Source: Candidatus Aminicenantota bacterium
Lineage (GTDB): Bacteria; Acidobacteriota; Aminicenantia; Aminicenantales; Aminicenantaceae
Direction of reading: 5' to 3'
DNA: 64,000 bases
Assembly (NCBI GenBank): GCA_014727835.1
Contig: WJMT01000070.1
Span: forward strand, 1 to 64,000
Every line of letters begins with the position of its first letter. Within the stretch, counting starts at the first letter, position 1. The notes under the pieces were generated by a model that ran no database searches, was not told the DNA's origin, and worked only from the letters and a program-made list of their open reading frames with translations. Below, piece by piece: positions 26,032-47,998 of the stretch. Both the position numbers and the translations under genes were made by a program.

Positions 26032-26874
26032 ATGAATTCAAAAACAACGCGATTTTTGATCAGCATCTTATTTTTGTGGTTATGGATCATTCTTCATGCT
26101 CTATTCATTTCCGCGGAAAAACAACCATCACCAAGAGAAATGAACATGATGACATGGAAGCAGTTTCAAGAGTGTGTTCCCGGACAGATCGAAACGGTTT
26201 TGCTTCCTGTGGGGTCTCTTGAGCCGCACGGAGTGATTCCTAATGGAACAGATAACTTAGCCCCACAAGTCATGAGTCAACAGATCGCTCAAGCAGTGAA
26301 CGCACTCATTGCTCCCACTCTGAATTATGGAGTGACACCCAGGATGAAGGCCTATGCTGGTGCGGTGTCTGTAAATCCCGAATCTTATCAGCCTTTTGTA
26401 GAGGATATCCTCATAGGTCTGGCCGAACAAGGATTCAAAAACATCATTGTACTGAACGGGCACGGAGGAAATACGAAATTTCTGCACCAAGCGGTTTTAA
26501 AGGTATCAAGCCGATGCAAAGTCAGGATCTTGGTGGTGAATTGGTGGAGCCTTGCGTCAGATGAAACCCAGGAGGTTTTTGGGGAAAGCGGAGGACATGC
26601 TGGAAATAACGAGACTGCTTATATTCAAGCTGTTTTCCCTGAACACATTCATCCGGAACAGTATCATGATGATATGGCCACCGTGAATGCAAGGGGTGAT
26701 TCCTGGTATGCGGTTCCGGTCCCGTCTTCAATAGGGCTTTATGAAAAAGGACAAGGATGTCCCACCTTTGATAAGAAACAGGCTCAAGAATATTTTCAAA
26801 AAGTGAACCACAAGGTGGCAAGCTTTATCAAGGAAATGATCAATAAGTGGGATATGGCGGATTTATATCGCTGA
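26032..26874 (+). CDS. Exported creatininase-family amidohydrolase
   Basis: 280 residues with a Sec signal (about 1-30) followed by a creatininase-fold domain. Metal-site motifs are visible: GSLEPHG (Glu, His), NGTDN (Asp), NGHGGN (His) and GGHAGNNETA (Glu). The family includes creatininase, mycofactocin MftE-type peptidases and FAPy deformylase-type amidases, so the substrate is open. Export is uncommon for this family. ATG 26032 has GGGAGG 6 bases upstream and puts the signal peptide at the N-terminus; in-frame ATGs at 26011 (AAGGAG 9 bases before) and 25993 are possible. The 3' end overlaps the convergent DUF5107 gene by 12 bases. Confidence 0.85.
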   Translation: MNSKTTRFLISILFLWLWIILHALFISAEKQPSPREMNMMTWKQFQECVPGQIETVLLPVGSLEPHGVIPNGTDNLAPQVMSQQIAQAVNALIAPTLNYGVTPRMKAYAGAVSVNPESYQPFVEDILIGLAEQGFKNIIVLNGHGGNTKFLHQAVLKVSSRCKVRILVVNWWSLASDETQEVFGESGGHAGNNETAYIQAVFPEHIHPEQYHDDMATVNARGDSWYAVPVPSSIGLYEKGQGCPTFDKKQAQEYFQKVNHKVASFIKEMINKWDMADLYR

Positions 26875-29800
26875 ATGAGAAGAATACCAAGAAGCCCAGG
26901 TGTGATTGAGGTTGAGTTCAATTGTTTTTTGAAATTCTTGTTGGGCCTTTTGAGTCCGTCCTTTTCCTAAATAGCCCAGTCCCAAAAGAAAGTGGAGGCG
27001 GGCTTTTTGATCGGAAGCAGACTGCAGAGAGCCGAATTTGATGAAAAACTCTGAAAAATTTTCCTTTTCTAGGCGGTCTTGGGCCGTTTGGATGAGATGA
27101 TCGAGTTTGTTTTCAGATTGTTTGGATAAGCCCAGATGGTCCATACAAAGGGCCTGGTAAAAGCTGAGGTCAGAAAAGTCTGGCACTTTTTGAGTCAAGG
27201 ATTTTTTGAAATGGGACATGGCTTGGGCTTTTTTCCCAATTTTGGCATAAGCTTGACCAATAAAATAGTGGATTTTCGCTTCCTGGCCGCCTTGATAGGG
27301 TTTTCCTACTTCCTGATTTTGAGGATATTTGAGAGCTGCGCGGTAGTCGGAAAGGGCTTTATTATATTCTCCTGATACAAAGTGATCGTATCCTCTAAGA
27401 AGATGGGCATCAACATGGTGATGGTGGATTTGACCTCCTCCTTCCCAGACATGGAAATGATGGGTGTTCATAAGGCGGATAGCGCGGTCATAATGGCCCA
27501 GTTGAACCAAGAGCGATATCTCACGGATCAATGCATCACTGCTGTCCTTGACTGTTTTGTGGTATTTATTGAGAAGAGAAAGCCTGAACTCAGGGCTTTT
27601 TTTAGCCAGTTCATAGATTTGATCTAACTCCAGAAAAAGCCGGGCATGCTGTTGAGTCAACTCTATTGCAGTTTCCATGCTCCGGAGGGCCTGGGGGATG
27701 TTTTTTTCAATCCGGACATAAGCCAGTCCCAGATTACGGTGGACCATGAAATCTGCAGGGTCGATCTGGCTTGATTTTTCCCAGAAAAAGATAGCTTTTC
27801 TCGGTTGGTGCTCAAAGAAGCAGTTACCGAGATAATAGGCAGCTTTGGCATCCTCTGGATGCTTTTCCAAAGCATGAAGAAGGACAGGGATGGTTTCTGT
27901 TCTGAAAGGAAAACCGTATTTTGAAGACAACTGAGATGCTTTTTGATAGTGAAGGGCAGAGTCTGAGGATTGTTTGTTTTTTTGATAAAAGAAGCCCAGA
28001 TAGTAATGAGTTAGGGGATGGGGATTTTCGATTTTATGATATCTCCTCAATACGTCTATGGCCTCATCATTAAAACCGCTGTTTCCATAATCCAGCGCCA
28101 GTTCAAGATAAGACTGGACTGAGCCGCGCATCAAATGTGTCAATTCAATTGAAATCCGTTCTGCTTGGCGCATCCGATCCTGATCACAAAGAGTCAGATA
28201 GAGTTCATTTTTTGCCCAAAAGTCAAGGGGATTGGACTGCAAAGACCTCAGGGCCAGTTGTTTTGCTTTCTTGAGATGATCTGTCTTTCTCATCAATACG
28301 GTGAGTAAATTTAATTTTTTGGCTGATTTTTCAGTAGAAGACAAGGGGCCTGTTAGGTATTTCAATGCTTTATCATAATCTCCATTGATGCAGCTGATTT
28401 CGGCCAGTTGATAAGTCCCTGCAGAACTCCAAGCATGGTCCCAAGTGGCTTTGGCAAATGATTCTTTGGCTTGAGAGAGATTTCCCAGCTTTCTCAGTGC
28501 AAATCCCAGATAGTAATATGCCTTGGCGTTTCGAGGATGAGTGTGGTTGTGAGTCACTCTTTCCAAAGCGCGGTTCAAACATTCCTGGGCTTTTTGGTAT
28601 CTTGCTGCTTTGATATGAAGGATTCCCAGGGCTGTGTTTGTTCGGGAGTCATATAAATCCCGGTCCAGAGCTTCTTGGTAATAGGAAAAGGCATTAATCC
28701 GGGGATTATGGAACTGTTCCAGTCTGGAACCAGTTAAATAGAGCTGCTCAATAGTCTTGATTTTTTCAGGGGGAAGCGGAGGCTTGACAGGCTCAGGTTG
28801 ATGCTCTGATGTTGTTCTGATAGGGGAATGAGAGATCAATTCCTGGCCTTGTTTGGTTGTGACTCTGACGGCCAAGTTGTTTTTTGAAATCCCATTGGAC
28901 AACCTGATTTCATGCTGGTAAGGATTCCCTGGTCCAATGTCAGCTTTGAGTGTGGATATCTTTTCTTCTCCAGACCAAAAGACAATGCTCACCTCTTCTC
29001 TGTATCGGGTGAGATTTAGGCTGATTTTGGCTTCATTTTTCTCAGCAAATTCAAGGTTTAATGCTGCTTCTGTATTCGCTGCTTTCACCCCTCCCATTTT
29101 TTGGAGAGGATACCAGAATTGTTGAATGATTTTTCTCTCATAGGGTTGGATCCAGCTGTAATCTGGTTGATTGTCTGAAAATGCTCCCACCATCAATTCA
29201 ATATAAGGTCCGTCTTTGTCTGTCAGCATTTTCTCCCACATTCGGCCTTTTTCGCCTGTCCCCCAGTTCCATAGTTTTTTACCAGGGACCGAATGATGGT
29301 CTGCCCAATGGATAAGACCGGCTTGTTTCCCGTGGTCGTATCCTGCTAAAAAGTCTCCTTTGCTTTTCCAGGCGAAAAAAGAGGTGGGAGCTGGATGATT
29401 TTTCCACCAGCTGATATCCACTCCGCGTGAATAGTCTACCCGGTGGTAAAACTCTCTGGAAATAGGCCAGTGAGTGAATTGGTTTTTTCCGTGATACGTG
29501 GCAAATTGAGTATCAGAAGGAAAGATGACTTGATAATCCTTATTTGCATGCACAGCGACATTAGCCCAATAGAGAAAAGAATGCGCCAAAGGAGTCCGGT
29601 TGATCAAATGGACTGATGCCTCAATATAAGATCTGTTGGGATAGAGAGACAGGCCGATCACCCATTTCATTCTGTGCATCAATTCCAGTTCTCCGATCCA
29701 TATGGTTTTGCTTCCGTCTGGATTTTCAGTGATAGTATGATCAACGGCCATAAAGGAAGTGGGTCTGTGGTGATGAGGAAAGTCCCACTCGATGCCCCCA

Positions 29801-30252
29801 GAAGTCCATGCTCCCAGCATACCGATCAGGGCTGGTTTTATCACAGATTGACGGTAAATGAGGTCGTAGTTATTGGTCTTATCCAGGATGGAGAAAAGTT
29901 TGCCACCTAATTCCGGAAGAACACACAGTCTCAGATATTTGTTTTCCAAATAGAGAGCTCGGTATGTTTTTGTTTTCTTTGTCTCTGTCAGTTTGTCATG
30001 AAGAGGATAAGGATAGACCCTTCCTTGGGCTCCTTGATAGGCTCTTCCATTGTAGAAAATGGGGAATGGATCTGGTTTCCCGGTGAGATAAGTGGGGATT
30101 TTGATGTCCTCTTCCCATGCTTTGACGGACTGTTTTCTGAGCAAACAGCGGCTGCTGGAAAGACCAGGAAATAAAAAAAGAATGACAAATAAAGTCCCAA
30201 GAAATGATATAAGGAAATTTTCAGGATTTGTTCTGATTGTCTTTGATGACAT
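26863..30252 (-). CDS. DUF5107 domain protein with long TPR array
   Basis: About 1129 residues with an N-terminal hydrophobic signal/anchor (about 12-32). Residues about 45-400 form a DUF5107 domain, recognised from LCVLPELGGKLFSILDKTNNYDLIYRQ and GMLGAWTSGGIEWDFPHHHRPTSF. This domain resembles aldose-epimerase/galactose-mutarotase-like sandwiches and is known mostly from Bacteroidota, Acidobacteriota and Aminicenantes-type genomes near glycan genes. From about 500 to the end there are 12 or more TPR units. It is the last gene of the nag operon and overlaps nagB by about 32 bases. I use ATG 30252 because GAGG is 6 bases upstream; ATGs at 30255 and 30264 are in frame. It may bind or process glycan fragments outside the cytoplasm (inference). 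Confidence 0.85.
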   Translation of the reverse strand: MSSKTIRTNPENFLISFLGTLFVILFLFPGLSSSRCLLRKQSVKAWEEDIKIPTYLTGKPDPFPIFYNGRAYQGAQGRVYPYPLHDKLTETKKTKTYRALYLENKYLRLCVLPELGGKLFSILDKTNNYDLIYRQSVIKPALIGMLGAWTSGGIEWDFPHHHRPTSFMAVDHTITENPDGSKTIWIGELELMHRMKWVIGLSLYPNRSYIEASVHLINRTPLAHSFLYWANVAVHANKDYQVIFPSDTQFATYHGKNQFTHWPISREFYHRVDYSRGVDISWWKNHPAPTSFFAWKSKGDFLAGYDHGKQAGLIHWADHHSVPGKKLWNWGTGEKGRMWEKMLTDKDGPYIELMVGAFSDNQPDYSWIQPYERKIIQQFWYPLQKMGGVKAANTEAALNLEFAEKNEAKISLNLTRYREEVSIVFWSGEEKISTLKADIGPGNPYQHEIRLSNGISKNNLAVRVTTKQGQELISHSPIRTTSEHQPEPVKPPLPPEKIKTIEQLYLTGSRLEQFHNPRINAFSYYQEALDRDLYDSRTNTALGILHIKAARYQKAQECLNRALERVTHNHTHPRNAKAYYYLGFALRKLGNLSQAKESFAKATWDHAWSSAGTYQLAEISCINGDYDKALKYLTGPLSSTEKSAKKLNLLTVLMRKTDHLKKAKQLALRSLQSNPLDFWAKNELYLTLCDQDRMRQAERISIELTHLMRGSVQSYLELALDYGNSGFNDEAIDVLRRYHKIENPHPLTHYYLGFFYQKNKQSSDSALHYQKASQLSSKYGFPFRTETIPVLLHALEKHPEDAKAAYYLGNCFFEHQPRKAIFFWEKSSQIDPADFMVHRNLGLAYVRIEKNIPQALRSMETAIELTQQHARLFLELDQIYELAKKSPEFRLSLLNKYHKTVKDSSDALIREISLLVQLGHYDRAIRLMNTHHFHVWEGGGQIHHHHVDAHLLRGYDHFVSGEYNKALSDYRAALKYPQNQEVGKPYQGGQEAKIHYFIGQAYAKIGKKAQAMSHFKKSLTQKVPDFSDLSFYQALCMDHLGLSKQSENKLDHLIQTAQDRLEKENFSEFFIKFGSLQSASDQKARLHFLLGLGYLGKGRTQKAQQEFQKTIELNLNHTWASWYSSHSAI

Positions 30253-31015
30253 CATTGACCTCATTTTTATGATTCCACACCCATTTGTAATAGTCTTTTT
30301 TGCTTAAAAACACAGCGGCTTTTTCATCTATGATGATTTTGGCTTGCTTGTGAAATTGAAGTATAGAGGCAGGACAGGAAGATGAAATGGGGCCCTCAAC
30401 AGCTCTGGATATGGCAACCGCCTTTTCTTCACCGGAAGCGACCAGAATGACCTCTCTGGAGTCCATTATAGTGCCGATTCCCATGGTAATGGCGAACCGG
30501 GCTCCTTTTTTTGGGCCAAAGTTGTCTTTGAGCGTGGTCTCAGTCAAGGTCTTGACTCGGGTCCTGGCCTGCAGGGAGGAAGAGGGTTCATTGAATCCGA
30601 TGTGTCCTTCTCTTCCTATGCCAAGAAGCTGAAGGTCGATCCCGCCTGATTTTTTGATCTTATGTTCGTATTCCCTGCATGCAAGGTCAATATTTGTGGG
30701 ACGGGAAGGAGGGATGTGGGTGTTTTGGGCAGGGATGTTTATGTGAGAAAAAAGATGATGATTCATATAAGAATGAAATGTGATAGACTCTTCGGGGTCG
30801 AATCCGATGTATTCATCCAAATTGAAACTTTTGACCTTTTTGAAATTGACTTTGCCCAGTTGATATGCCTGGACAACTTTTTCATAGATTCCGAGCATGG
30901 TGTTTCCTGTAGCGAGTCCTAAAACAATATCCGGTTTTTTTTGAACAGCTGAAACAATCCTGGCGGAGACTTCGTGACTGACCTGTTCATAAGAGGGAAG
31001 AATGATGATTTCCAT
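30221..31015 (-). CDS. nagB: Glucosamine-6-phosphate deaminase
   Basis: 264 residues, near the 266 of E. coli NagB. It converts glucosamine-6-phosphate to fructose-6-phosphate and ammonia in the cytoplasm. Visible hallmarks: LGLATGNTMLGIYEKV (phosphate loop), KSFNLDEYIGFDPEESITFHSYMNHHLF, LLGIGREGHIGFNEPSSSL (catalytic Asp-to-Gly region with the GxxGHIGFNEP motif), and AITMGIGTIMDSREVILVASG. Its ATG immediately follows the stop of the phosphohexomutase gene. Its 3' end overlaps the DUF5107 gene. With nagA in the same operon it completes N-acetylglucosamine catabolism. Confidence 0.96.
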   Translation of the reverse strand: MEIIILPSYEQVSHEVSARIVSAVQKKPDIVLGLATGNTMLGIYEKVVQAYQLGKVNFKKVKSFNLDEYIGFDPEESITFHSYMNHHLFSHINIPAQNTHIPPSRPTNIDLACREYEHKIKKSGGIDLQLLGIGREGHIGFNEPSSSLQARTRVKTLTETTLKDNFGPKKGARFAITMGIGTIMDSREVILVASGEEKAVAISRAVEGPISSSCPASILQFHKQAKIIIDEKAAVFLSKKDYYKWVWNHKNEVNDVIKDNQNKS

Positions 31016-32353
31016 TTACAAACACTCCTTGATCTCAGAATATATAGACTCGACCAAACGATCATTTTTCCCTTCAATGATGATCCTCATCACAGGCTCT
31101 GTGTTTGAAGGCCGGACATGTAGCCAAAAATCAGGATACTCCACTTTTAATCCATCCTCAGTGTTGGTCTGGCCTTGATCGAACTTTGCTTGAATGAGGT
31201 GGAGTATTCTTTTTCTGTCGTTGAAATTGGCTTTGATTTTGTCCTTGATCATTTTGTAGTAAGGGAGAGCGCTTTTAAGCTGGGATGTCTTTTTTCCTGA
31301 AACAGCCAGGTATTCCAAAATCAAAGCCATCCCAACGAAACTGTCTCTGCAGGCGTGTATGTCAGCGGCAATGATCCCTCCGTTTCCTTCTCCTCCGATT
31401 TTTGAACCGGTATCCAACATTTTTTTGGAAACATTGATTTCTCCCACTTTTGTTCGGATCAGCTCCACCCCTGCTTTTTCAGAGATGTCTTGAATGACCC
31501 GGGATGTGGAGAGGTTGATCACAACAGGAGTTTTTTGTTTGTGGTTCAAATAGTATTGAATGGCTAGAGCCAGAGTGTATTCTTCTCCGATGGGACTTCC
31601 TTTTTCATCCACGACAGCCAGTCTATCTGCATCCGCATCCTGAGCAAATCCAATGTCTGCTCCATGTTTTTTCACAGATTCAGACAGAGCCGTGATGTTT
31701 TGCGGCAGAGGTTCCGGATTTCTGGGAAATCCATTGGACAAACCACAATTGATGCACTTGACTTCGACTCCCAATTGTTCCAAAAAGCTTTTCACATAAG
31801 GAGAGGCGGCCCCTCCGCAGGGGTCCACGATGACTTTCAGCTGTTTGTTTGCAATCAGATCTCCCTGAATGAAATCAAGGATCTTGGTTTCATGGATTTG
31901 GAAGGGGTGGCCCTCTTTTTTAATGATTCCTGATTGAGCGACTCTTTTAAACCGTCCTTGGTAGTAATAATCCAGCAGTTCTTCCGCTTCATAAGGGGAG
32001 AGAAAAAAACCACCGTTTTTGATGAGTTTCAATGCATTCCATTCCACGGGATTGTGGGAGGCGGTTATAGAAATCCCTCCTCTCAAATGTTTTGATTTCA
32101 CATAGACCTGCAGAGATGGAATGGGAAGAATCCCCATATCCACGGGGATTGCCCCGCAGGAAAGCAAGCCAGAAAAAACAGCGTATTTGAGCATACTCCC
32201 GGAAGGTCTGGTGTCAGTAGCGACTCCGATCTCACCCTCACCTATAAAACTGGAAAAGGCCTCTGAAAATTTCAGAATCAATTGAGGGGTGAGGCTTTGA
32301 CCCACAATGCCCCTGATTCCGGAGATGCTGATTTTCAGGTCCGATGTTCTCAA
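31016..32353 (-). CDS. Phosphohexomutase (phosphoglucosamine/phosphomannomutase type), intact active site
   Basis: 445-residue alpha-D-phosphohexomutase. The four conserved sites are complete: SGIRGIVGQ at the N-terminus, catalytic phosphoserine in TASHNP (Ser99), metal loop DADADR (239-244), sugar loop GGEGNGG (near 310) and the phosphate-binding RPSNTEP near residue 420. It interconverts hexose- or hexosamine-1- and 6-phosphates. In this operon with nagA and nagB a phosphoglucosamine mutase role (linking catabolism to UDP-GlcNAc synthesis) is likely, but phosphomannomutase or glucomutase activity is not excluded. Its start overlaps the stop of the degenerate paralogue upstream by 4 bases (ATGA), so the two are translationally coupled. 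Confidence 0.92.
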   Translation of the reverse strand: MRTSDLKISISGIRGIVGQSLTPQLILKFSEAFSSFIGEGEIGVATDTRPSGSMLKYAVFSGLLSCGAIPVDMGILPIPSLQVYVKSKHLRGGISITASHNPVEWNALKLIKNGGFFLSPYEAEELLDYYYQGRFKRVAQSGIIKKEGHPFQIHETKILDFIQGDLIANKQLKVIVDPCGGAASPYVKSFLEQLGVEVKCINCGLSNGFPRNPEPLPQNITALSESVKKHGADIGFAQDADADRLAVVDEKGSPIGEEYTLALAIQYYLNHKQKTPVVINLSTSRVIQDISEKAGVELIRTKVGEINVSKKMLDTGSKIGGEGNGGIIAADIHACRDSFVGMALILEYLAVSGKKTSQLKSALPYYKMIKDKIKANFNDRKRILHLIQAKFDQGQTNTEDGLKVEYPDFWLHVRPSNTEPVMRIIIEGKNDRLVESIYSEIKECL

Positions 32354-33690
32354 GTTTCGATCCTTTCCTTGATTTCCTCTTCGATTGAATTCACGGATTC
32401 AAGGTCTTGGCCTTCGATCATGATACGCAAAATGAATTCAGTCAGAGAAGGCCTTATGATAAACCAGGCTTTTTTTCTGTCCACACGGATCCCGTCTGTA
32501 AAGTCGGGATGTTCTTTGGAATATTTGTCTTCGAGCTGGTCCATGACCCGGTATGTTTTCACTGGAGACACTTTGATTTTTATTTTCTTCCGGACCAAGT
32601 CCGGAAATGGAGAAATGATTTCAGAAAGTTTCTTCCTTTGTTTGGCCATGAGATCCAGTATCAAGGTCAATGAAAAGAGGGAATCGTATCCAGGAGAAAA
32701 AGGCAGGAAAGCAAAGCTCCCGCTTCCTTCGCCTCCTGCTTCAGCCCTCTCAGCAATCATGGTGTGGCAGACAGAAGATTGACCCACTCTGGTTTTCAAT
32801 ATTTTTATCCCGCAGATATCAGCGGCCCAATCCACTATGGAAGAGGTGGCCACTGTGGAAACCGCTGTGGTGATATTTTTCTTTAATGAAATCAGGCACA
32901 GAGGAAGGGTTGATTCTTCACTCAATGCCGCTCCTTTATCAGAGACCAGCGAAAGACGACTTCCGTCTGAATTCAATAGAAAACCAAGATCAGAATTTGT
33001 GGCTTTAACCACAGCTTGGGCTTGAGATGAATTCTCGATGGAGGGTTCAGGTGGATGGGAAAAAGGCTGGTCAATTTCATTGTTGATATAAACCATTTTC
33101 AGATTAAAAAATTCACTGTATGGTTTCAGGAAAGGAGAAACCGCCCCGTTGCACGGATCAGCTGTGATTTTGAATTTGGCTTTTCGAATCTCTGAACTGT
33201 CCACGACGCTGGAGAGGATTTTCAAATACGCATCCAAGGGAAATTCCTTTTTGCTGATGTGCCCCAGTTGATTCCAAGCAGCTTTATCAAAGGAGCCCGC
33301 TTCATAAACATTGAACACATTGTTTCCTTCTGCCGCTTCTAAATAGTGTCCTTCTTGATTGAGCAGCAATATGGCATTCCAAGGAGAAGGGTTGTGTCCG
33401 GCTGAAACAGATATTCCCCCCGAGAATTTGCTGTTTCTTAGTGAAAATTGAAGAAAAGGAGTGGGAAGTCTCCCATAGTCGATGCAATCAAGTCCGGAAG
33501 CCAAGACAGAAGAGATGGCTGACAGTGAGAGCATTCGGCTTGATTCTCGACAATCTCGACACAGAGCAACTGTTCCTTTTTCCAGATAGGAGGAAAAAGC
33601 CGAGGCAAATTGGGATGCGACTTCAACATTGAGGGCTCCCGGCACTTTCCCTCTAACGCCGGAAACAGAAATCCTCAGGCGGTCTTCCAA
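32350..33690 (-). CDS. Phosphohexomutase paralogue with degenerate active site (probable pseudoenzyme)
   Basis: 446 residues, colinear with the intact mutase that follows it, with SGVRGKVPG at the start and the same four-domain pattern. The catalytic sites have changed: TASHNP is SAGHNP (Gly98 in place of phosphoserine), metal loop DADADR is NSDGSR (240-245), sugar loop GEGNGG is GEGSGS, and RPSNTEP is RPSLTEF. Without the serine and most metal ligands, mutase chemistry is not expected. The reading frame is intact over its full length and tightly packed between nagA (16-base overlap) and the active mutase (4-base overlap), so the gene is kept. A regulatory or structural partner of the active paralogue is the simplest idea (inference). 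Confidence 0.88.
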   Translation of the reverse strand: MEDRLRISVSGVRGKVPGALNVEVASQFASAFSSYLEKGTVALCRDCRESSRMLSLSAISSVLASGLDCIDYGRLPTPFLQFSLRNSKFSGGISVSAGHNPSPWNAILLLNQEGHYLEAAEGNNVFNVYEAGSFDKAAWNQLGHISKKEFPLDAYLKILSSVVDSSEIRKAKFKITADPCNGAVSPFLKPYSEFFNLKMVYINNEIDQPFSHPPEPSIENSSQAQAVVKATNSDLGFLLNSDGSRLSLVSDKGAALSEESTLPLCLISLKKNITTAVSTVATSSIVDWAADICGIKILKTRVGQSSVCHTMIAERAEAGGEGSGSFAFLPFSPGYDSLFSLTLILDLMAKQRKKLSEIISPFPDLVRKKIKIKVSPVKTYRVMDQLEDKYSKEHPDFTDGIRVDRKKAWFIIRPSLTEFILRIMIEGQDLESVNSIEEEIKERIET

Positions 33691-34805
33691 TTTTGATCTC
33701 CTGTGAACAGCTCTCCATTTTCATACACAGCCTGAATCTCAAAGGACTTGTTCAAAACAATGAAGTTGGCATCACGTCCGGGCTTGATGTTAAATGAGGA
33801 GAGCCCAAAAAAATCAAGCGCATTTGTGCAGACAAGGGGAATGATTTCTTCAGGTTTGATACCAGAATCAAACAGAGCTTTAGCCTGTTCAGAAACTAAA
33901 GTGCCTCCACCTGCCAAAACATTGTCTTTGACAGTGATTTTGCGTCCGAATGAGGATATTTTAAACTTTAAAATGGACTGAGATTTGGAATAAGCAGGAG
34001 GGATCAGGTCTGATGTCAAGCAGATAGCCGGACCTTTGATTTGAAGGAGAAGAGAAAAAAAATCCATGGAATTGTGAATGGAATCTGCTATGACTTCAAG
34101 CTGAAGGTCTTTGAGGACAAGACCTGCGCCGGTCAGGCCGATTTCTCTGTGATGCAGACCGCTCATGGCATTGGGATAATGAGTCATGTGTCTGAGTCCG
34201 AGGTCGTAATGTTTCAAGAAATCACGGAATTGAGCTTGACTGTGTCCGGCCGAAGGAATTTTACTGACTTGAAGTGCTTTCTTAACCATAAGCTGCAATG
34301 GGTCCATTTCAGGAGCAAATGTATGGACTTTGAAATTCTTGATGCTGAGCAGCTCTTCAATGTTTTCAGGGGTGGGAGTAAGAATGTTTTTCTCCTCCTG
34401 ACTTCCCTTTTTGATAGGATTGATAAAAGGACCTTCTGCCCTTAAAAAAGGAAAGATGCTGTGAGGATTGTCTTTCCGGTATTTTTGATAATAACCCGAG
34501 ATCCTTTTGAGTTTGTTTAAAGAAGAACAGCTGATTGTGGGCACTGCGCAAAACACCCCGTTTTGTTTGAGTTTGTTTTCGAGAGAGGCAAAATCGCCTT
34601 GTTCAAAATCATATCCCCATCCCCCGTGGATATGAGGATCCGCAAATGGAGGTATGATGTAGGCCGCCTCATAAAGGTTTTTTGTGATGCCAGGATGAAT
34701 TTTTCCGTCTTTGATATAAAACTTGCTCTTCACAAAACTTCCGTCTTTCCAGATCTTTCCTTTAAAACTTTGGTTGTGGTGATAAGGGCTGCGGCCTGTT
34801 TCCAT
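33675..34805 (-). CDS. nagA: N-acetylglucosamine-6-phosphate deacetylase
   Basis: 376 residues, the usual family length (about 380). An amidohydrolase-superfamily TIM barrel: FADPHIHGG metal motif (near 55), FLRAEGPFINP (metal Glu in EGPF), SAGHSQAQ (His), HMTHYPNAMSGLHHRE (His and the NAM substrate loop), ADSIHNS, and TSDLIPPAY holding the catalytic Asp in place of the usual TDA. It removes acetate from GlcNAc-6-P to give glucosamine-6-P for nagB. It is the first gene of the five-gene operon. GAAGAG lies 9 bases before the ATG. The divergent gap to the OYE-like gene is 96 bases. Confidence 0.93.
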   Translation of the reverse strand: METGRSPYHHNQSFKGKIWKDGSFVKSKFYIKDGKIHPGITKNLYEAAYIIPPFADPHIHGGWGYDFEQGDFASLENKLKQNGVFCAVPTISCSSLNKLKRISGYYQKYRKDNPHSIFPFLRAEGPFINPIKKGSQEEKNILTPTPENIEELLSIKNFKVHTFAPEMDPLQLMVKKALQVSKIPSAGHSQAQFRDFLKHYDLGLRHMTHYPNAMSGLHHREIGLTGAGLVLKDLQLEVIADSIHNSMDFFSLLLQIKGPAICLTSDLIPPAYSKSQSILKFKISSFGRKITVKDNVLAGGGTLVSEQAKALFDSGIKPEEIIPLVCTNALDFFGLSSFNIKPGRDANFIVLNKSFEIQAVYENGELFTGDQNWKTA

Positions 34806-34901: not shown

Positions 34902-36236
34902 ATGTCTCATTTCGAACCATTTGATTTTAAGCAAAGCGAGGAACTTTTAAAAACTTCAGAACATTTGGGATACAAGCTTCCCTTTAGCAAAGATATCTCC
35001 AGCCTGTTTGAAAGAACAGACATTAACGGAACAGAGGTCCCCAACCGGTTTGCAGTGCATCCTATGGAGGGATGTGATGCTTATCAAAACGGGGCGCCGA
35101 GCAAATGGACCCACAGGCGATACCAGCGGTATGCTGAAGGAGGAAGTGGTTTGATCTGGTTTGAAGCCACTGCTGTGACCAATGAATCCCGCTCAAATCC
35201 CCGACAGCTTAGCATCAACAATGAAAACATGAGATTTTTTAAGGCCCTGGTGAATGAAGTGCGTGCCGCAGCCTCTAATCGGTTTGGGAGATCACACCGG
35301 GTCTATTGTGTTCTCCAGCTCACTCATTCAGGGAGGTACAGTCAGTCAGTCCTAGGCTCGAAACCTAAAGTGGCTCAGTTCAATCCGTTTTTGGATGGAA
35401 ATCCGGAAGAAATCCAGATTATCAGAGATGAAGAACTGGATCATCTCCAGGACGATTTTTTGGAAGCGGCACGGCTGGCTTTTCATTCAGGTTTTGATGC
35501 CGTGGACATCAAGTGCTGTCATGGTTATCTAATCAATGAGTTGCTGGGTGCTTTTAACAGGAAAAACAGCCAATATGGAGGGAGTTTTGAGAACAGAAGC
35601 CGCTTTATGACCGAAGTTTTTCAAAAAGTGGATGCCAATACACAGGCTCTTGATCTCTGTTCCAGAATCAGTGTTTTTGATGGCATCCCATATCCCTATG
35701 GATTCGGATTTGCCAAAAAAACAAGCCTGGATATTGACATGACTGAGATCACAGTCTTCCTCAGAAGGTTGATGATCCTTGGCGGTTCTCTGTTCAATAT
35801 ATCTGCAGGCAATCCTCATGCCAAACCTCACATCAGCAGACCTTATGACCGGGCTTTTCCCGGCACCGGTATCCCGGAGGAACATCCGCTAGAGGGAGTG
35901 ATTCGGCTGATCAAGACAGCTTCCCATCTCCAGAGTCAATTTCCGGAAGTTCCGTTTGTGGGAACAGGATACTCATGGCTTCGTCAATTTTTTCCTTATG
36001 TGGGAGCAGCTGTGATCCAGCAAAAGAAAGCGGCTTTTATCGGGCTGGGGAGAAGCTCCCTGGCTTATCCAGATGCCCCTTTAGACCTTATGGAGAAGGG
36101 CCATTTGGATAAAAATAAAGTCTGTATCACATGTTCCCGGTGTTCTGAACTGATGAAGAAGCGAGTCAAAACAGGATGTGTGATGCAGGATCCATTTGTT
36201 TATGGAGCGGAATATAAGAAATCAAAAAATGAATGA
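34902..36236 (+). CDS. Old-yellow-enzyme-like NADH:flavin oxidoreductase with Fe-S motif
   Basis: 444-residue FMN TIM-barrel protein. VPNRFAVHPMEGCDA, CVLQLTHSGRYSQ, EAARLAFHSGFDAVDIK, CHGYLINELLGAFNRKNSQYG and GGSFENRSRF are OYE landmarks. C-terminal CITCSRC plus a Cys 12 residues later (KTGC) resembles the [4Fe-4S] motif of the 2,4-dienoyl-CoA reductase/trimethylamine dehydrogenase branch, but the large C-terminal FAD/NAD domains of those enzymes are missing. The following gene is a separate FAD flavoprotein that overlaps it by 8 bases, so the pair may work as one enzyme, with the flavoprotein donating or accepting electrons (inference). The substrate could be an unsaturated uronate, given the KDPG/KDG enzymes downstream. 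Confidence 0.85.
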   Translation: MSHFEPFDFKQSEELLKTSEHLGYKLPFSKDISSLFERTDINGTEVPNRFAVHPMEGCDAYQNGAPSKWTHRRYQRYAEGGSGLIWFEATAVTNESRSNPRQLSINNENMRFFKALVNEVRAAASNRFGRSHRVYCVLQLTHSGRYSQSVLGSKPKVAQFNPFLDGNPEEIQIIRDEELDHLQDDFLEAARLAFHSGFDAVDIKCCHGYLINELLGAFNRKNSQYGGSFENRSRFMTEVFQKVDANTQALDLCSRISVFDGIPYPYGFGFAKKTSLDIDMTEITVFLRRLMILGGSLFNISAGNPHAKPHISRPYDRAFPGTGIPEEHPLEGVIRLIKTASHLQSQFPEVPFVGTGYSWLRQFFPYVGAAVIQQKKAAFIGLGRSSLAYPDAPLDLMEKGHLDKNKVCITCSRCSELMKKRVKTGCVMQDPFVYGAEYKKSKNE

Positions 36237-38256
36237 ACAAACAGTGAAAATAAAGAACTGTAAAGTCCCGTGCTATTCTCTCAACACTCTAGTCATAGGA
36301 AGCGGAATCGCAGGATTGAATGCAGCTCTGTGCCTCTACGAATGCGGATTGAAAAACATTGCTGTGGTCACAGAGGAATGGGGAGGGGGAACCTCGAATA
36401 ATACCGGTTCTGACAAGCAGACCTACTATAAGATGTCCATCTCTGGAGATCTTTTGGATTCTCCAGTGAAAATGGCCCAGGACCTTTTTAATGGGGGATG
36501 CATGCACGGAGATATCGCTCTCTGTGAGGCCGTGAATTCTGTGAGGTGTTTCATGAGACTGGTGAACCTGGGAGTTCCCTTTCCTCATGACAGATATGGT
36601 TCTTATGTGGGCTATAAAACCGACAATGATCCTCTGGGGAGAGCTGCTTCTGCAGGACCTCAGACCTCTCAATTGATGTTCAAATGCCTGAGCGAAAAGA
36701 TCCAACAGATAGGAATCCCGATTTTCAACCAGCATCAGGTCATTTCTCTTCTGGATGAGAAAGAAAAAGAGGAGAAAAAAATTGTCGGTGCTGTTGCCTT
36801 AGACAAGACTCAGCTCAACTCTGAGTCTGGGGGGTTTGTGCTGTTCAATGCAGTGAACGTGGTGCTTTCGACAGGAGGGCCGGCTGGAATGTACCACACA
36901 TCCGTGTATCCCAAAAGCCAGAAGGGATCTACAGGTCTGGCTTTAAAGGTAGGAGCTGTGGGCCAGAACCTTACGGAATCCCAATTTGGCCTGGCTTCTG
37001 TTCCCTTTAGATGGAATCTTTCCGGTGCTTATCAACAGGTCATACCCAGATATATATCCACGGATCAAAAGCAGAGAGAGGAAACGGAATTTCTGAATGA
37101 TTTTTTTCCTGATTCCGGAAGGCTGTCCACCGCCATATTTTCAAAAGGTTATGAATGGCCTTTTGATGTCCACAAGGTCCAAGATTATGGATCTTCATTG
37201 ATTGATATTCTTGTTTACAGAGAAACCGTACAAAAACAAAGAAGGGTTTTTTTGGACTTTACACAGAATCTGAGCGTAAAAAGAGAAGAGGGGAAATTTG
37301 ACTTCTCTTTTTTAAGCAGTGAAGCTTATAACTATCTTGAAAAATCAGGGATTTTGTTCGGGACACCTGTACAGAGATTGAGAAGACTGAATGAGCCGGC
37401 TTATCAGGTTTTTAAAAACAATGGGATTGATCTGGAAAAGGAGCCCCTTGAGATCGCGGTCTGTGCCCAGCACAATAATGGGGGATTGAAGGGGAATATA
37501 TGGTGGGAGTCCAATATCAAACACCTGTTTCCAGTGGGCGAGGTCAATGGCTCTCACGGAGTGCGAAGGCCGGGGGGATCATCCTTAAATTCGTGTCAAG
37601 TGGGAGGATTGAGAGCCGCATTGTTTATATCAAAAAAATATTCCTATTCCCCTCCTTCGATCCATGAGTTTATTCCTAAAATAAAACAAAAAACAGAGGA
37701 AGCCGTGGCATTCACTGAAAAAATCCGATCCCAACCCTCTTTTTCAACGCTCTCTTTGAAACAGATTTTCGAGGAAATCAAGAACAGAATGTCTTGTTTT
37801 GGAGCCATCATTAGAAACAAAGAAGCCCTGTCCAAAGAAAAGGCCCGAGCATGGAAGCTTTATCATCGGATAGAAAAACAGTTATCCATCAACTCTACCG
37901 AAGAACTCCCCGGTGTTTTTTCATGTTTGGATGCGTGTCTCACTTCTGCTGTATATCTGGAGGCTATGTGTGAATATTTGGAAAAAGGAGGAAAGAGCAG
38001 GGGTTCCTTTTTGGTCATGGATTCGGATGGGATACAACCATGTCCGGAGTTGAGTGATGATTGGAAATACAGTTTAGGCAAACCAGGGGCTTTTGTTGAT
38101 AAGAGGATACTTGAACTGCATTTGGGATCCCAGTTTAGGGTCAAAAAAAAGTGGGTTCCTGTCAGGCAGATACCCAAACCCGATCTGTGGTTTGAAAAGA
38201 TATGGGAAGATTTCAGAAAAGATAAAATCATTGGGCAGGAGAGATCAAATGAGTGA
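36229..38256 (+). CDS. FAD-binding protein of the fumarate reductase/succinate dehydrogenase flavoprotein family
   Basis: 675 residues. N-terminal dinucleotide motif VIGSGIAGLNAALCL with the acidic strand end AVVTEEWGGGTS, and C-terminal FAD motif FPVGEVNGSHGVRRPGGSSLNSCQVGGLRAA, are as in FrdA/SdhA, AspB (L-aspartate oxidase) and AprA. A C-terminal helical domain (about 510-600) is also present. The succinate-binding HxxR details cannot be confirmed. No signal peptide or membrane anchor, so cytoplasmic. ATG 36229 overlaps the OYE-like gene by 8 bases and is chosen over an in-frame ATG at 36196 within that gene. Its stop overlaps the SDR gene, giving a coupled operon. Likely reduces or oxidises a carboxylate such as a uronate derivative (inference). 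Confidence 0.85.
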   Translation: MNEQTVKIKNCKVPCYSLNTLVIGSGIAGLNAALCLYECGLKNIAVVTEEWGGGTSNNTGSDKQTYYKMSISGDLLDSPVKMAQDLFNGGCMHGDIALCEAVNSVRCFMRLVNLGVPFPHDRYGSYVGYKTDNDPLGRAASAGPQTSQLMFKCLSEKIQQIGIPIFNQHQVISLLDEKEKEEKKIVGAVALDKTQLNSESGGFVLFNAVNVVLSTGGPAGMYHTSVYPKSQKGSTGLALKVGAVGQNLTESQFGLASVPFRWNLSGAYQQVIPRYISTDQKQREETEFLNDFFPDSGRLSTAIFSKGYEWPFDVHKVQDYGSSLIDILVYRETVQKQRRVFLDFTQNLSVKREEGKFDFSFLSSEAYNYLEKSGILFGTPVQRLRRLNEPAYQVFKNNGIDLEKEPLEIAVCAQHNNGGLKGNIWWESNIKHLFPVGEVNGSHGVRRPGGSSLNSCQVGGLRAALFISKKYSYSPPSIHEFIPKIKQKTEEAVAFTEKIRSQPSFSTLSLKQIFEEIKNRMSCFGAIIRNKEALSKEKARAWKLYHRIEKQLSINSTEELPGVFSCLDACLTSAVYLEAMCEYLEKGGKSRGSFLVMDSDGIQPCPELSDDWKYSLGKPGAFVDKRILELHLGSQFRVKKKWVPVRQIPKPDLWFEKIWEDFRKDKIIGQERSNE

Positions 38257-39040
38257 GCAAAGAGTGGCATTGGTTACAGGGGCATCCAGGGGAATAGGAC
38301 GTGGGATTGCGATAGAATTGGCAAAAAAAGGTTTTTCTATTGCCGGTAACGCCTCGAGCCTGAAATCGTCTGGCCGGAAACCAGGGCTTTCAGAAGTCAA
38401 ACAAAAAGTTGAACAGTCCAGAGCAGAGTTTTTGCCGGTTCCGGGAGATATTTCAGATCTGGAATGTCATGAGAAATTGATCCAGAAGGTATTGAATCGA
38501 TTCGGAAAAATCCATGTCTTGGTCAACAATGCAGGAGTCGCCCCACAAAAAAGAAAAGATATTTTAGATACCACCCCGGAAAGCTTTGACAGATTATTAT
38601 CAGTCAATCTTCGCAGTGCTTTTTTTCTGACCCAAAGGGTGGCTCGGTTTATGATCCGGCAGAAACAACAGTCTTCTGAATATACAGCCTGTATTATCTT
38701 CATTTCTTCTGTATCAGCGGAATTCTCTTCTCCTTCAAGAGCTGAATACTGCATATCCAAGGCAGGGCTGAGTCAAGCCGCTCGTATTTTTGCAGACCGT
38801 TTGGCAGAGTATGGGATCAATGTTTATGAGCTGAGGCCAGGTATCATTGATACAGACATGACAAGACCGGTTCAAAAAAAATATGATCGGTTGATTAAGG
38901 AAGGCTTAGTCCCTCAGAAGAGATGGGGGACCCCTCAGGATGTGGGAAAAGCAGTAGCGGCCCTGGCTCAAGGTTATTTGGATTATTCCACGGGAGCTGT
39001 CATTGAGGTCAGTGGGGGGATGAGCATAAGAAGGTTATAA
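38249..39040 (+). CDS. Short-chain dehydrogenase/reductase (FabG-like)
   Basis: 263-residue NAD(P)-dependent SDR. TGASRGIGRGIA (cofactor loop), NNAGVAP, FISSVSAEF (Ser), YCISKAGL (Tyr-x-x-x-Lys) and RPGIIDTDM are the classical motifs, so it should be active. Such enzymes in uronate clusters (for example KduD-like) reduce keto sugar acids, which fits the KDPG aldolase/KDG kinase fusion 21 bases downstream. FabG-type fatty acid synthesis is less likely because no fab gene is near. AGGAGA precedes ATG 38249, which overlaps the flavoprotein stop by 8 bases; longer in-frame starts from 38093 lie inside the flavoprotein gene. Confidence 0.9.
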   Translation: MSEQRVALVTGASRGIGRGIAIELAKKGFSIAGNASSLKSSGRKPGLSEVKQKVEQSRAEFLPVPGDISDLECHEKLIQKVLNRFGKIHVLVNNAGVAPQKRKDILDTTPESFDRLLSVNLRSAFFLTQRVARFMIRQKQQSSEYTACIIFISSVSAEFSSPSRAEYCISKAGLSQAARIFADRLAEYGINVYELRPGIIDTDMTRPVQKKYDRLIKEGLVPQKRWGTPQDVGKAVAALAQGYLDYSTGAVIEVSGGMSIRRL

Positions 39041-39061: not shown

Positions 39062-40807
39062 ATGAATAAGTCTGAAAAAATATATCGTCTGCTCAAAAAA
39101 AATCGTCTGGTGGCGCTGCTGAATCCTCAAAGCAAACAGGAATGCATCACTGCCTATGAGCTGTTCAAAGAGACGGGTGTTGTACTTGAGGTAGCGCTTC
39201 GGTCTGAGTCTGCCGAAAAGGGGATCAAACACATCTTTGATCGATACCCGGAAGCTCTTATTCTTGCAGGAACAGTCATGACCAAGCCGAAAGCAGAGAG
39301 AGTCATTGAAATGGGAGTGGCTGGGGTGGTTTCAGCTGATTATATCCCGGATGTGGTGAAAGTCTGTGTGGACAGAGATGTGATGTGTATTCCGGGGGGG
39401 CTTTCAGATATAGGAAAACAGCTGGTACAGAAAGCAGAGAACCAAGGATGCACTTTAGAGCAACTCAGAGAAAATTATCCTTACCAGTGGGTGTATAAAT
39501 TGTTTCCCGCGTTTTCAGGTGGTCTGAACAATATGCCTCTGAAAAAAGCATGGACAGGACCATACAGTGATGTCACTGTTTTTTATACGGGGGGAGTGAA
39601 GCTGGACAATCTGATTCAGGCTAATTCCATGGATCCCAATGGGATCTTTTGTGCCTCTGCATTAACCAAACACATTCATGATCCGGATGTCATGAAACAG
39701 GATATCAAGCAGTGGAAAAGTGTGTTGAGTGCAAAAAGAAAAAAATCCGCTTCCCCCAAAAAGTCTGTTTCGCGACCAAAGCAAACGCCTTCAGTGGTCA
39801 CTTTTGGCGAACTGATGTTAAGACTCTCACCGGTCAAAGGTGTTCGCCTGAAAAATTCTGAGGAATTGAAGGTTCATTTTGGAGGTGCAGAAGCCAATGT
39901 CGCCGTGTGTTTGGCTCAATTTGGGTTCCATTCCTCTTTTGTATCTGTCATCCCTTCAAATGATATCGGTGACAATGCGTTGGCCTGTTTAAAAAAATTC
40001 GGAGTGAACACCTGTTTTATCCAAAGAAAGGGAGACCGGCTGGGAATTTATTATTTGGAGCATGGTTCTGGGCCCAGGCCTTCGAAAGTCATCTATGACA
40101 GAAAAGGGTCTTCAATCACCCGAATCACACCAGAAGAGATCAATTGGGAAGATGTGTTCAAAGATGTTCAGTGGTTCCACTGGACAGGGATCACCCCAGC
40201 CCTGGGTCCTGATGTGGAACAATGCCTGCAGTCAGCTCTGAAAGCGGCAAAAAAAGCAGGAATCCAAGTGAGTGTGGACCTCAATTACAGAAAAAAACTT
40301 TGGAGTGAGGACAAAGCCCGAGAGGTTATGACAGAATTGATGGAGTATACAGACGTGATGATGGGAAATGAAGAAGATCCCACTCGGGTATTTGGGATCC
40401 AATCCGCTGGAAGTGATGTGAACCGAGGGAAACTCAATATGGATGGATATCAGCGCATGGTAGAAACACTTTGCCAGCGTTTTGATTTCAAAAAAGTGGC
40501 TGTGACATTGAGAGAAAGTCTTTCCGCAACTGAAAACATGTGGTCTGCGTGCCTCTATAATGGACAGGATTTCATTCTTGGTCCGAAACACAAGGTATGG
40601 ATCACTGATAGAGTCGGGACCGGAGATGCGTTTGCTGCTGGTTTGATCTACAGCCTGCTCAGTGGACAAGGGGATAAACAAGCGCTTGAATTCGGGATCG
40701 CATCTGCTGTTCTGAAGCATACAGTCTGGGGGGATTTCAATGTGGTCACTGTGGAAGAGGTCAAACGGCTCGCCCAGGGAGAAGACCACGGCCGGGTCCT
40801 TCGTTGA
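39062..40807 (+). CDS. KDPG/KHG aldolase fused to PfkB-type 2-keto-3-deoxygluconate kinase
   Basis: 581 residues. Residues 1-215 are an Eda-type aldolase with EVALRSES (catalytic Glu), LAGTVMTKPKAE and YKLFPAFSGG (Schiff-base Lys). A basic linker (about 220-243, KRKKSASPKKS) joins it to a PfkB kinase (about 245-575) with VTFGELMLRLSP start, FGGAEANVAVCLAQFG sugar-binding helix and the catalytic RVGTGDAFAAGLIY loop. The kinase would phosphorylate 2-keto-3-deoxygluconate to KDPG, and the aldolase would cleave KDPG to pyruvate and glyceraldehyde-3-phosphate: the last two steps of uronate or Entner-Doudoroff-type catabolism in one chain. It is the last gene of the OYE/flavoprotein/SDR operon and converges with the glycosidase at 40816. 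Confidence 0.93.
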   Translation: MNKSEKIYRLLKKNRLVALLNPQSKQECITAYELFKETGVVLEVALRSESAEKGIKHIFDRYPEALILAGTVMTKPKAERVIEMGVAGVVSADYIPDVVKVCVDRDVMCIPGGLSDIGKQLVQKAENQGCTLEQLRENYPYQWVYKLFPAFSGGLNNMPLKKAWTGPYSDVTVFYTGGVKLDNLIQANSMDPNGIFCASALTKHIHDPDVMKQDIKQWKSVLSAKRKKSASPKKSVSRPKQTPSVVTFGELMLRLSPVKGVRLKNSEELKVHFGGAEANVAVCLAQFGFHSSFVSVIPSNDIGDNALACLKKFGVNTCFIQRKGDRLGIYYLEHGSGPRPSKVIYDRKGSSITRITPEEINWEDVFKDVQWFHWTGITPALGPDVEQCLQSALKAAKKAGIQVSVDLNYRKKLWSEDKAREVMTELMEYTDVMMGNEEDPTRVFGIQSAGSDVNRGKLNMDGYQRMVETLCQRFDFKKVAVTLRESLSATENMWSACLYNGQDFILGPKHKVWITDRVGTGDAFAAGLIYSLLSGQGDKQALEFGIASAVLKHTVWGDFNVVTVEEVKRLAQGEDHGRVLR

Positions 40808-44185: not shown

Positions 44186-45418
44186 TTATTTCAAATCTCC
44201 TCCAGGGAAGAACCGGTAGTTTCGCAAATCGATCTGCTTTCCTTTTTTGGCCCATTTGATTTTTCTTTCTGAGGGCAGAGATGAATTCAAATAACAGTTG
44301 TACAAAGTTTCTCCCCAGTTTTTGATCCATAGGCGTTCCTCGGATTGGCTTTTGACTTTGGAACGAGATGGAAAGACACCGGGTTCAGGCACAGATTCCT
44401 GTATTCCATTGACAGCCAGTGTGTGGGGGTATGCGGCTTCAGGTCCGCAGACAGCAGGCGTTAGATTTTTGATAACTTTGATCGATTCGTAAAATTTTTT
44501 AAACTGGTTCTCTGAATCAGGATTTCCATAGTCCTTGATCGTTCCGTTTTGATCCTGGCAGAGGATTTTTTTTGCAGTTTCTCCATAAGTGATGGTGGCG
44601 TTCTCAAATTCCAGTTTAAACAGAGGGCCTAAACTGTTTTGTACGGTATGGGAAGCATAAAAAAGAAGCGTGACTCCATCATCGATCAACAGGCGGCAGG
44701 CGATGGAATCAAAATTGTCTATGGAATAAGCTTTGTATGCTTCCGCTTCCACTGAACAGGGGAGAGCGCTGGTGTGTTTCTGGTCTCCTAAAAGGTAAAG
44801 AAGATTGTGAAGGAAATGAGCCATGGCATTGTTTGCAGGGCTGTCTAAAATCCAATGTCCTTGTTCGTCCTTGACCTTTCCTGCCCAATCATTTCTCCGA
44901 TAGTATTCCCATCCTCTGGGCCATAAGCATAAGGTCTTCATTTGAAGAGGTTTCCCGAACAATCCTTTGTGGATATCTTTTTTTAAGGCCTGGATGGAAG
45001 ATGTGTAAGACCATTGATACCCCACCATTAAATGAAATTTGGTTTTGTTTTTTATTTTGACCATCTGAAGGGCATCCTGGACTGTGGAGGCCAAAGGTTT
45101 GTCACAGAGGACATGGCTTCCCTGTTTCAAAGACAGAAGACTCTGGGGAACGTGACAGTGAATAGGGGAAGATATGATGACCAGGTCTGGATTGAGGTGA
45201 TCTTCATAGACCTGTTCGAGGTTGGAATAAACAGGGATGCTCTGTTTGAGAAACCAAGAGGAATGAGAGGATTGGTCAGGGAACGGCTCAACAGCGGCTC
45301 GGATATCAATGAGCCCCCGGTGGTATTCTTTGATCAAAAGCTGAGTGTAATAATGCCCGTATCCTCCGGTTCCGACCATCACCACTGAAACCGGTCTGTT
45401 TTGATTTTTATGGATCAT
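44186..45418 (-). CDS. Gfo/Idh/MocA-family oxidoreductase
   Basis: 410 residues. N-terminal Rossmann domain with VVMVGTGGYGHYY, strand end AAVEPFPD, DLVIISSPIHCHVPQSLLSLKQGSHVLCDKPLAST (the E/D-K-P motif with Lys). C-terminal alpha/beta domain includes WILDSPANNAMAHFLHNLLYLLGD, where the conserved His of the family is likely in AHFLHN. Such enzymes oxidise or reduce sugar hydroxyls with NAD(P), and some open glycosides by an oxidation-elimination route. It overlaps the GH38 gene by 11 bases and precedes the URO-D gene by 13 bases. The substrate is probably released by the neighbouring glycosidases (inference). Confidence 0.9.
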   Translation of the reverse strand: MIHKNQNRPVSVVMVGTGGYGHYYTQLLIKEYHRGLIDIRAAVEPFPDQSSHSSWFLKQSIPVYSNLEQVYEDHLNPDLVIISSPIHCHVPQSLLSLKQGSHVLCDKPLASTVQDALQMVKIKNKTKFHLMVGYQWSYTSSIQALKKDIHKGLFGKPLQMKTLCLWPRGWEYYRRNDWAGKVKDEQGHWILDSPANNAMAHFLHNLLYLLGDQKHTSALPCSVEAEAYKAYSIDNFDSIACRLLIDDGVTLLFYASHTVQNSLGPLFKLEFENATITYGETAKKILCQDQNGTIKDYGNPDSENQFKKFYESIKVIKNLTPAVCGPEAAYPHTLAVNGIQESVPEPGVFPSRSKVKSQSEERLWIKNWGETLYNCYLNSSLPSERKIKWAKKGKQIDLRNYRFFPGGDLK

Positions 45419-47903: not shown

Positions 47904-47998
47904 TTTTAATGATTTCTTTATTATAACAAAACCAGACACAGGGAAAACAAAAAATTAAAAAAAGGGGATTTCCGGGGGTTTTTTATGGAAAATAGATT

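Follow-up and report, generated by a model that had tools for sequence, protein, structure and literature searches.

A phosphohexomutase paralogue lacking catalytic residues, conserved in tandem with an archaeal-type phosphoglucosamine mutase in several bacterial phyla

Phosphohexomutases are textbook single-gene enzymes that act as monomers or homodimers. Why, then, would a bacterium keep two full-length phosphohexomutase genes side by side, one of them devoid of the residues on which catalysis depends? The question is raised by a stretch of 64,000 nucleotides, hereafter the window, located on contig C36 of an Aminicenantes MAG 3.1 Mb in size. Five genes on its minus strand, encoding a NagA-like protein, a mutase homologue without the catalytic serine (the pseudo-mutase), a mutase with the complete catalytic set (the active mutase), NagB and a DUF5107/TPR protein, follow each other head to tail as in one operon, with overlaps of 16, 4, 0 and 44 bases between successive members (Table 1). 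The original prediction of two full-length mutase genes overlapping by 4 bases, with the inactive one lying between nagA and the active copy, agrees with this map, and all four Pfam domains were found in each. Shine-Dalgarno-like stretches, read from the sequence, precede both mutase starts (AAGGAAAGG and CAGGAG). NagB scored 268.7 bits against TIGR00502 (cut-off 236.9); the NagA-like protein scored 27.4 bits against PF01979 (cut-off 25) and 134.9 bits against TIGR00221, which is below the cut-off of 225.65. The DUF5107/TPR protein that closes the operon has an N-terminus resembling a signal sequence.

Table 1. Genes of the nag-mutase locus in the window and diagnostic loops of the two mutases
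Feature	Position	Strand	Remarks
nagA-like N-acetylglucosamine-6-phosphate deacetylase	33675..34805	-	operon's first gene; TIGR00221, PF01979; same place in many relatives
Pseudo-mutase, alpha-D-phosphohexomutase homologue, four domains, full length	32350..33690	-	446 aa, TTG start
Active partner, archaeal-type phosphoglucosamine mutase (GlmM, TIGR03990)	31016..32353	-	445 aa, TTG start
nagB glucosamine-6-phosphate deaminase, directly 3' of active mutase	30221..31015	-	TIGR00502
DUF5107 + TPR protein, probable last operon gene	26863..30264	-	PF17128 213.8 bits + TPR families
Pseudo-mutase phosphoryl-transfer loop SAGHNP, Gly98 replacing phosphoserine	33388..33405	-	sequence
Pseudo-mutase metal loop NSDGSR replacing DADADR	32956..32973	-	sequence; Asp 1 and 3 lost, middle Asp and Arg kept
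Active-mutase phosphoryl-transfer loop TASHNP (Ser99)	32048..32065	-	sequence
Active-mutase metal loop DADADR	31622..31639	-	sequence
4-bp start/stop overlap TTGA, pseudo-mutase/active mutase	32350..32353	-	TTG start, TGA stop

Both proteins exceed the cut-offs of the Pfam PGM_PMM families PF02878, PF02879, PF02880 and PF00408 and share 32% identity over their full length. The active mutase reaches 474.9 bits against TIGR03990 (Arch_GlmM), above the curated cut-off of 439, whereas the pseudo-mutase, with 348.4 bits, falls below it. Common to both and to Arch_GlmM are the four-domain fold, the sugar-binding Glu and the Arg/Ser/Thr phosphate loop. The roles of the four active-site loops were assigned after PMC6443537. 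As had been read beforehand, Gly98 of the pseudo-mutase stands where active alpha-D-phosphohexomutases, including the active copy, have their phosphoserine, and its metal loop departs from the three-Asp DxDxDR pattern that the active copy retains. In addition, Leu replaces the Lys found ten residues past the catalytic Ser (Lys104 in alignment numbering), bringing the losses to the catalytic Ser, the Lys and two metal Asp. The original prediction also took the sugar and phosphate loops to be altered, and here it was mostly wrong: GEGSG and RPSLTEF retain the ligand-contact residues (Glu/Ser and Arg/Ser/Thr, respectively). The corresponding sugar contacts of Xanthomonas PGM are Glu320 and Ser322 (PMC6443537). 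AlphaFold2 models of the single chains, built with diverse alignments, gave a complete and confident fold for the pseudo-mutase (pLDDT 95.9; nearest PDB entry 9du5, TM 0.92) and a pLDDT of 94.0 for the active mutase (9du5, TM 0.93). Among solved structures, both models come closest to three archaeal mutases, 9du5, 1wqa and 2f7l (TM 0.90-0.93).

Could the pair be an oddity of one genome? Relatives in several phyla rule this out. When 60 relatives were searched for the tandem, as the original prediction had proposed, it was found in more than 30 genomes of the window's order. Every upstream copy with readable loops had Gly at the Ser position and NSDxSR or a close variant as the metal loop, and every downstream copy had ASHN and D-x-D-A-D-R. 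Judged by this recurrence across the order, the Gly and NSDxSR of the window's pseudo-mutase are not a chance combination. From 84,980 species genomes, a scan whose patterns favour GHN, and which is therefore not a fair sample, yielded 327 relatives, among them Blastocatellia, Vicinamibacterales, Armatimonadetes, Kiritimatiellae, Lentisphaerae, Verrucomicrobia, Omnitrophota and a Chlamydiae MAG. Whole-phylum searches relied on alignment, independently of the GHN motif, and covered about 1,100 genomes in four phylum-level samples: Acidobacteriota with Aminicenantes, Armatimonadota, Verrucomicrobiota with Kiritimatiellia, and Omnitrophota. Combining the search tables with sequence classification, the upstream copy was counted in 36 of the 396 genomes of the window's phylum, 21 of 121 Armatimonadota genomes, 26 of 145 in the Verrucomicrobiota sample and three Omnitrophota genomes. 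Databases probably annotate both genes simply as mutases. No convincing natural fusion of the two copies was encountered; at L108 (3980-5692), on a contig of 3x coverage, the upstream ORF runs on into the first part of the active copy, possibly through a sequencing error or a fusion.

The next issue is whether the upstream gene is maintained or merely decaying. It had been claimed to appear selected, and a dN/dS comparison of both copies was carried out as suggested with that claim. In seven groups of close relatives, pairwise dN/dS was low for both the upstream (0.058-0.135, that is, 0.06-0.14) and the active copy (0.034-0.106) in almost all pairs, the ratios being rough for more distant pairs, where dS nears saturation. 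The exception was one very close pair (0.365 upstream, 0.106 active). With the substitutions fixed across phyla, these values indicate that the dead paralogue is kept by purifying selection in all but that pair, and they uphold the claim. On average the upstream copies diverge 1.3 times more than the active ones. Random decay was looked for in close relatives and was not found, except for two MAG copies with in-frame stops (L011 1382-2746 of G031, with two TAA, and L038 1561-2661 of G044, with one), which are possibly assembly errors or else real decay in single MAGs.

Conservation of individual residues follows the same line. Among the 65 upstream copies of the tree set, Arg44, His95, Arg239, Arg409 and Arg418 (alignment numbering) are invariant, and Arg9 (64/65), Ser411 (62/65), Thr413 (64/65) and Glu317 (59/65, the other six having Asp) are nearly so. 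Arg331 is present in every active copy and is replaced upstream by Phe, Tyr, His or other residues. Since the ligand residues are kept and the catalytic ones lost, the earlier suggestion that the pseudo-mutase acts as an allosteric partner or a sensor is plausible.

The two copies also travel together. Within the four samples, an upstream copy was present in 86 genomes, 85 of which carry the active one as well. The only exception is a MAG (G679), in which the missing gene is possibly due to incompleteness; roughly 20 other genomes contain nothing but the active type. The order was upstream to active in 136 of 136 adjacent observations, not all of them independent because some loci overlap, with a median gap of 20 nt. 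Both results sustain the idea of a partner put forward in the original prediction. In five genomes (G338, G686, G693, G695 and G752) the pair lies on different contigs or far apart, and in G966, beyond the samples, the genes are 4 kb apart and in reversed order. The existence of unlinked pairs means that linkage alone does not account for the co-occurrence. The upstream and active trees co-vary (r = 0.81; Mantel 0/2000), a correlation of little weight because the species tree confounds it. Some pairs fall, in both tree halves, within the clade of a foreign phylum, those of the Acidobacteriota genomes G289 and G329 among Armatimonadota being examples, as if the pair had been inherited or transferred as a unit.

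The origin of the pair was addressed with a maximum-likelihood tree of 138 proteins, built with a 'quick' method and with SH-aLRT as its only support measure. All 65 upstream copies form one clade (SH-aLRT 99) and single-copy relatives fall outside it. Because the tree unites all upstream copies, a single old duplication gave rise to the two paralogues. Catalysis was then lost by different routes in different lineages. Overall, Ser is absent from 53 of the 65 upstream copies and either Ser or a metal Asp is missing in 63 of them; 67 of the 69 active copies are intact. In clade I (Blastocatellia, Vicinamibacteria and some Armatimonadota), Ser was lost in 16/16 copies, Lys104 was kept in 15 and the first Asp (Asp234) in 16, Asp236 is mostly kept and Asp238 is Asp or often Glu. 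A second group (Armatimonadota and some Acidobacteriota) kept Ser in 10 of 11 copies and always has Asn as the first Asp. Clade III (Aminicenantes, Verrucomicrobiota and kin) has lost Ser, Lys and the first and third Asp. Only the Omnitrophota upstream copies retain the full catalytic set. On the tree, the Ser position underwent three or more changes. For competence as a whole, unordered parsimony needs one change among the upstream copies, permitting a regain in Omnitrophota; if loss is irreversible, an assumption supported by the different residues lost in different lineages, competence disappeared at least twice. Loss of Ser alone need not abolish activity, and the copies of clade I may retain some of it, because the Ser108Ala variant of PaPMM/PGM retains some activity, as cited in PMC6096347.

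The three catalytically intact upstream copies of Omnitrophota (L092, L096 and L112, in genomes G435-437) occur in genomes without canonical GlmM, and these pairs likely give a picture of the pair before inactivation. A second kind of pair occurs at two Armatimonadota loci (L191 and L199; G592:C13 and G616:C555), where the downstream copy is degraded too (TGGSQ and AAGGDR; TSGHQ), and the upstream copy keeps Ser (GSHN) with Asn for Asp in the metal loop; both genomes also carry a further upstream/active set (L244-L246).

What would such a pair be needed for? The window genome encodes GlmS, and 32 of the 34 genomes checked for this enzyme have one scoring above the cut-off, so a reversed NagB reaction replacing a missing GlmS can be discarded. 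It also has a canonical GlmM (TIGR01455, 478.6 bits) elsewhere, at C26, so the pair is not the organism's sole GlmM. With GlmS and a separate canonical GlmM present, the pair is thus an extra mutase in the window genome. The situation changes in the Omnitrophota genomes G435-437 and in G329: no canonical GlmM was above the cut-off there, and for this reason the pair likely supplies the GlmM step. These Omnitrophota give indirect support to the GlcN-6-P/GlcN-1-P mutase activity predicted for the archaeal-type active copy, and amino-sugar phosphates are our best guess for the substrate of the pair. The nag operon context announced by the original prediction holds in the window and at some other loci; nagA lies beside the pair in 25 loci and nagB in 20, including one Omnitrophota and two Armatimonadetes loci. 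It does not extend to the rest of the family, where neighbours change by lineage. Elsewhere the pair is accompanied by alpha-mannosidase and glucosaminidase genes, by a GHMP kinase-nucleotidyltransferase fusion and an MFS transporter (Blastocatellia), or by housekeeping genes. In Kiritimatiellia, TatC and SecA are neighbours. The fusion, of a GHMP kinase with a MobA-like nucleotidyltransferase, is found at L093, L104, L123, L124, L125, L127 and L144 (mostly Blastocatellia), one or two genes upstream of the pair and often with the MFS transporter in between, and it is a possible source of sugar-1-phosphate for the pair.

Taken as a whole, the evidence favours, with a probability of about 0.6, a hetero-oligomeric GlmM-type mutase in which the upstream protein is a subunit that binds sugar phosphate but does not catalyse. 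One old duplication provided the two paralogues; the downstream one kept the whole catalytic set, and the upstream one lost it by different routes and retained the residues for holding the sugar and the phosphate that is not transferred. The products of the translationally coupled genes would assemble through the domain-1 face, the dimerisation surface of GlmM. The dead subunit would then bind a hexosamine phosphate or a 1,6-bisphosphate without turnover, and its occupancy might determine how active or how stable its live partner is. Beside NagA and NagB in the window, such a device could control the traffic between GlcN-6-P and GlcN-1-P, or between their N-acetyl forms. Published precedents make heteromer formation, ligand binding and an effect on the partner reasonable steps. 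AGM1 with Ser changed to Ala is inactive, yet binds Glc-1,6-bisP (PMC6096347), GlmM dimerises through domain 1 (PMC8573169), PGM5 is inactive but binds its substrate (PMC7761743) and, in trypanosomes, dead paralogues are obligate partners of live ones (PMC6221367).

None of these systems is equivalent to the pair. Vertebrate PGM5 (aciculin) resembles the upstream copy, whose binding capacity is predicted from its residues, in being an inactive phosphohexomutase that retains substrate binding (PMC7761743). However, PGM5 keeps Ser and the metal site, has no operon with an active paralogue, plays a role in muscle structure and, with 16% identity to the window pseudo-mutase by fold alignment, is not a close relative. 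The AdoMetDC/prozyme system of Trypanosoma, in which a dead paralogue is needed with a live one (PMC6221367), is a model for the mechanism proposed here, but it belongs to an unrelated protein family and its partnership was demonstrated biochemically, whereas ours is deduced from genomes. Toxoplasma PRP1 and PGM2 are paralogous phosphoglucomutases that share a phenotype and were tested for heterodimers (PMC5705807); in contrast to the pair, they are eukaryotic, belong to another subfamily and their genes are not in tandem. Canonical bacterial GlmM comes from the same superfamily, forms a domain-1 dimer and engages other proteins such as CdaA (PMC8573169), whereas the window pair belongs to the archaeal-type family.

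Other explanations have to be set against the subunit reading. The upstream protein might still be catalytic. It could carry out the same mutase reaction using free hexose-1,6-bisphosphate or a different carrier of the phosphate, or it could have a related activity, as a phosphatase or in phosphoryl transfer. The intact Omnitrophota copies, the Lys and metal-site residues kept in clade I and the residual activity of PaPMM/PGM Ser108Ala (as cited in PMC6096347) speak for it. Nevertheless, this is unlikely: the window's clade lacks Ser, Lys104 and two metal Asp, the lineage-specific losses fit a release from catalysis better than the acquisition of one new chemistry, and fungal and human AGM1 are inactive when their Ser is mutated (PMC6096347). 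To a comparable degree we doubt that the protein is a free-standing sensor or carrier of sugar phosphates acting on a non-mutase target, for example a regulator or one of the nag enzymes. Its retained binding residues and missing catalytic ones, the nag genes at the 25 and 20 loci mentioned above and the existence of unlinked pairs would suit such a role, and B. subtilis GlmM does bind the unrelated protein CdaA (PMC8573169); yet what accompanies it constantly across genomes is the active paralogue, not the nag genes or any regulator.

Two further readings deserve less credit. The case for a pseudoenzyme may have been over-called, the pair being two mutases that differ in substrate specificity, as the intact appearance of the Omnitrophota upstream copies could suggest; the absence of Ser or a metal Asp from nearly all upstream copies makes this improbable. 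A non-functional relic, kept in the operon by chance, could display the lost catalytic residues and the two interrupted copies, but the dN/dS of around 0.1, the single upstream clade spanning several phyla, the near-invariant ligand residues and the intact fold model render it barely credible, and we consider random decay ruled out.

If the upstream protein is indeed a non-catalytic subunit, it would be the first bacterial pseudoenzyme subunit in the phosphohexomutase superfamily, as far as the open-access literature shows. No report of an inactive or heteromeric bacterial phosphohexomutase was found in that literature, which offered eukaryotic cases only, and the pair is probably a pseudoenzyme partnership in a superfamily where no such bacterial case was found. 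It would also add a level of regulation where amino-sugar breakdown and the synthesis of cell-wall precursors part ways in poorly studied environmental bacteria. More tentatively, at somewhat less than even odds, the family could represent an ancient, multi-phylum and previously undescribed hexosamine-phosphate mutase that is an obligate hetero-oligomer, one subunit of which was inactivated at least twice independently to become a regulator sensing sugar phosphates, with the Omnitrophota as an intermediate in which both subunits look active. The pair offers a natural series in which one subunit was repeatedly inactivated through differing residue losses, with an intact relative as baseline, and this makes the transition from catalytic to regulatory subunit directly testable.

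The surroundings of the locus contain other genes of sugar metabolism. A KDPG/KHG aldolase is fused, as the N-terminal part, to a PfkB-type sugar kinase at 39062-40807, and the nearby stretch 34902-39040 encodes an FMN oxidoreductase, an FAD enzyme and an SDR. A GH38 alpha-mannosidase is encoded close to the nag operon, at 45408-47939, and GH38-like genes lie directly 3' of the mutase pair in 11 related loci, mainly of Saccharicenans, a proximity hinting at a role in glycan breakdown.
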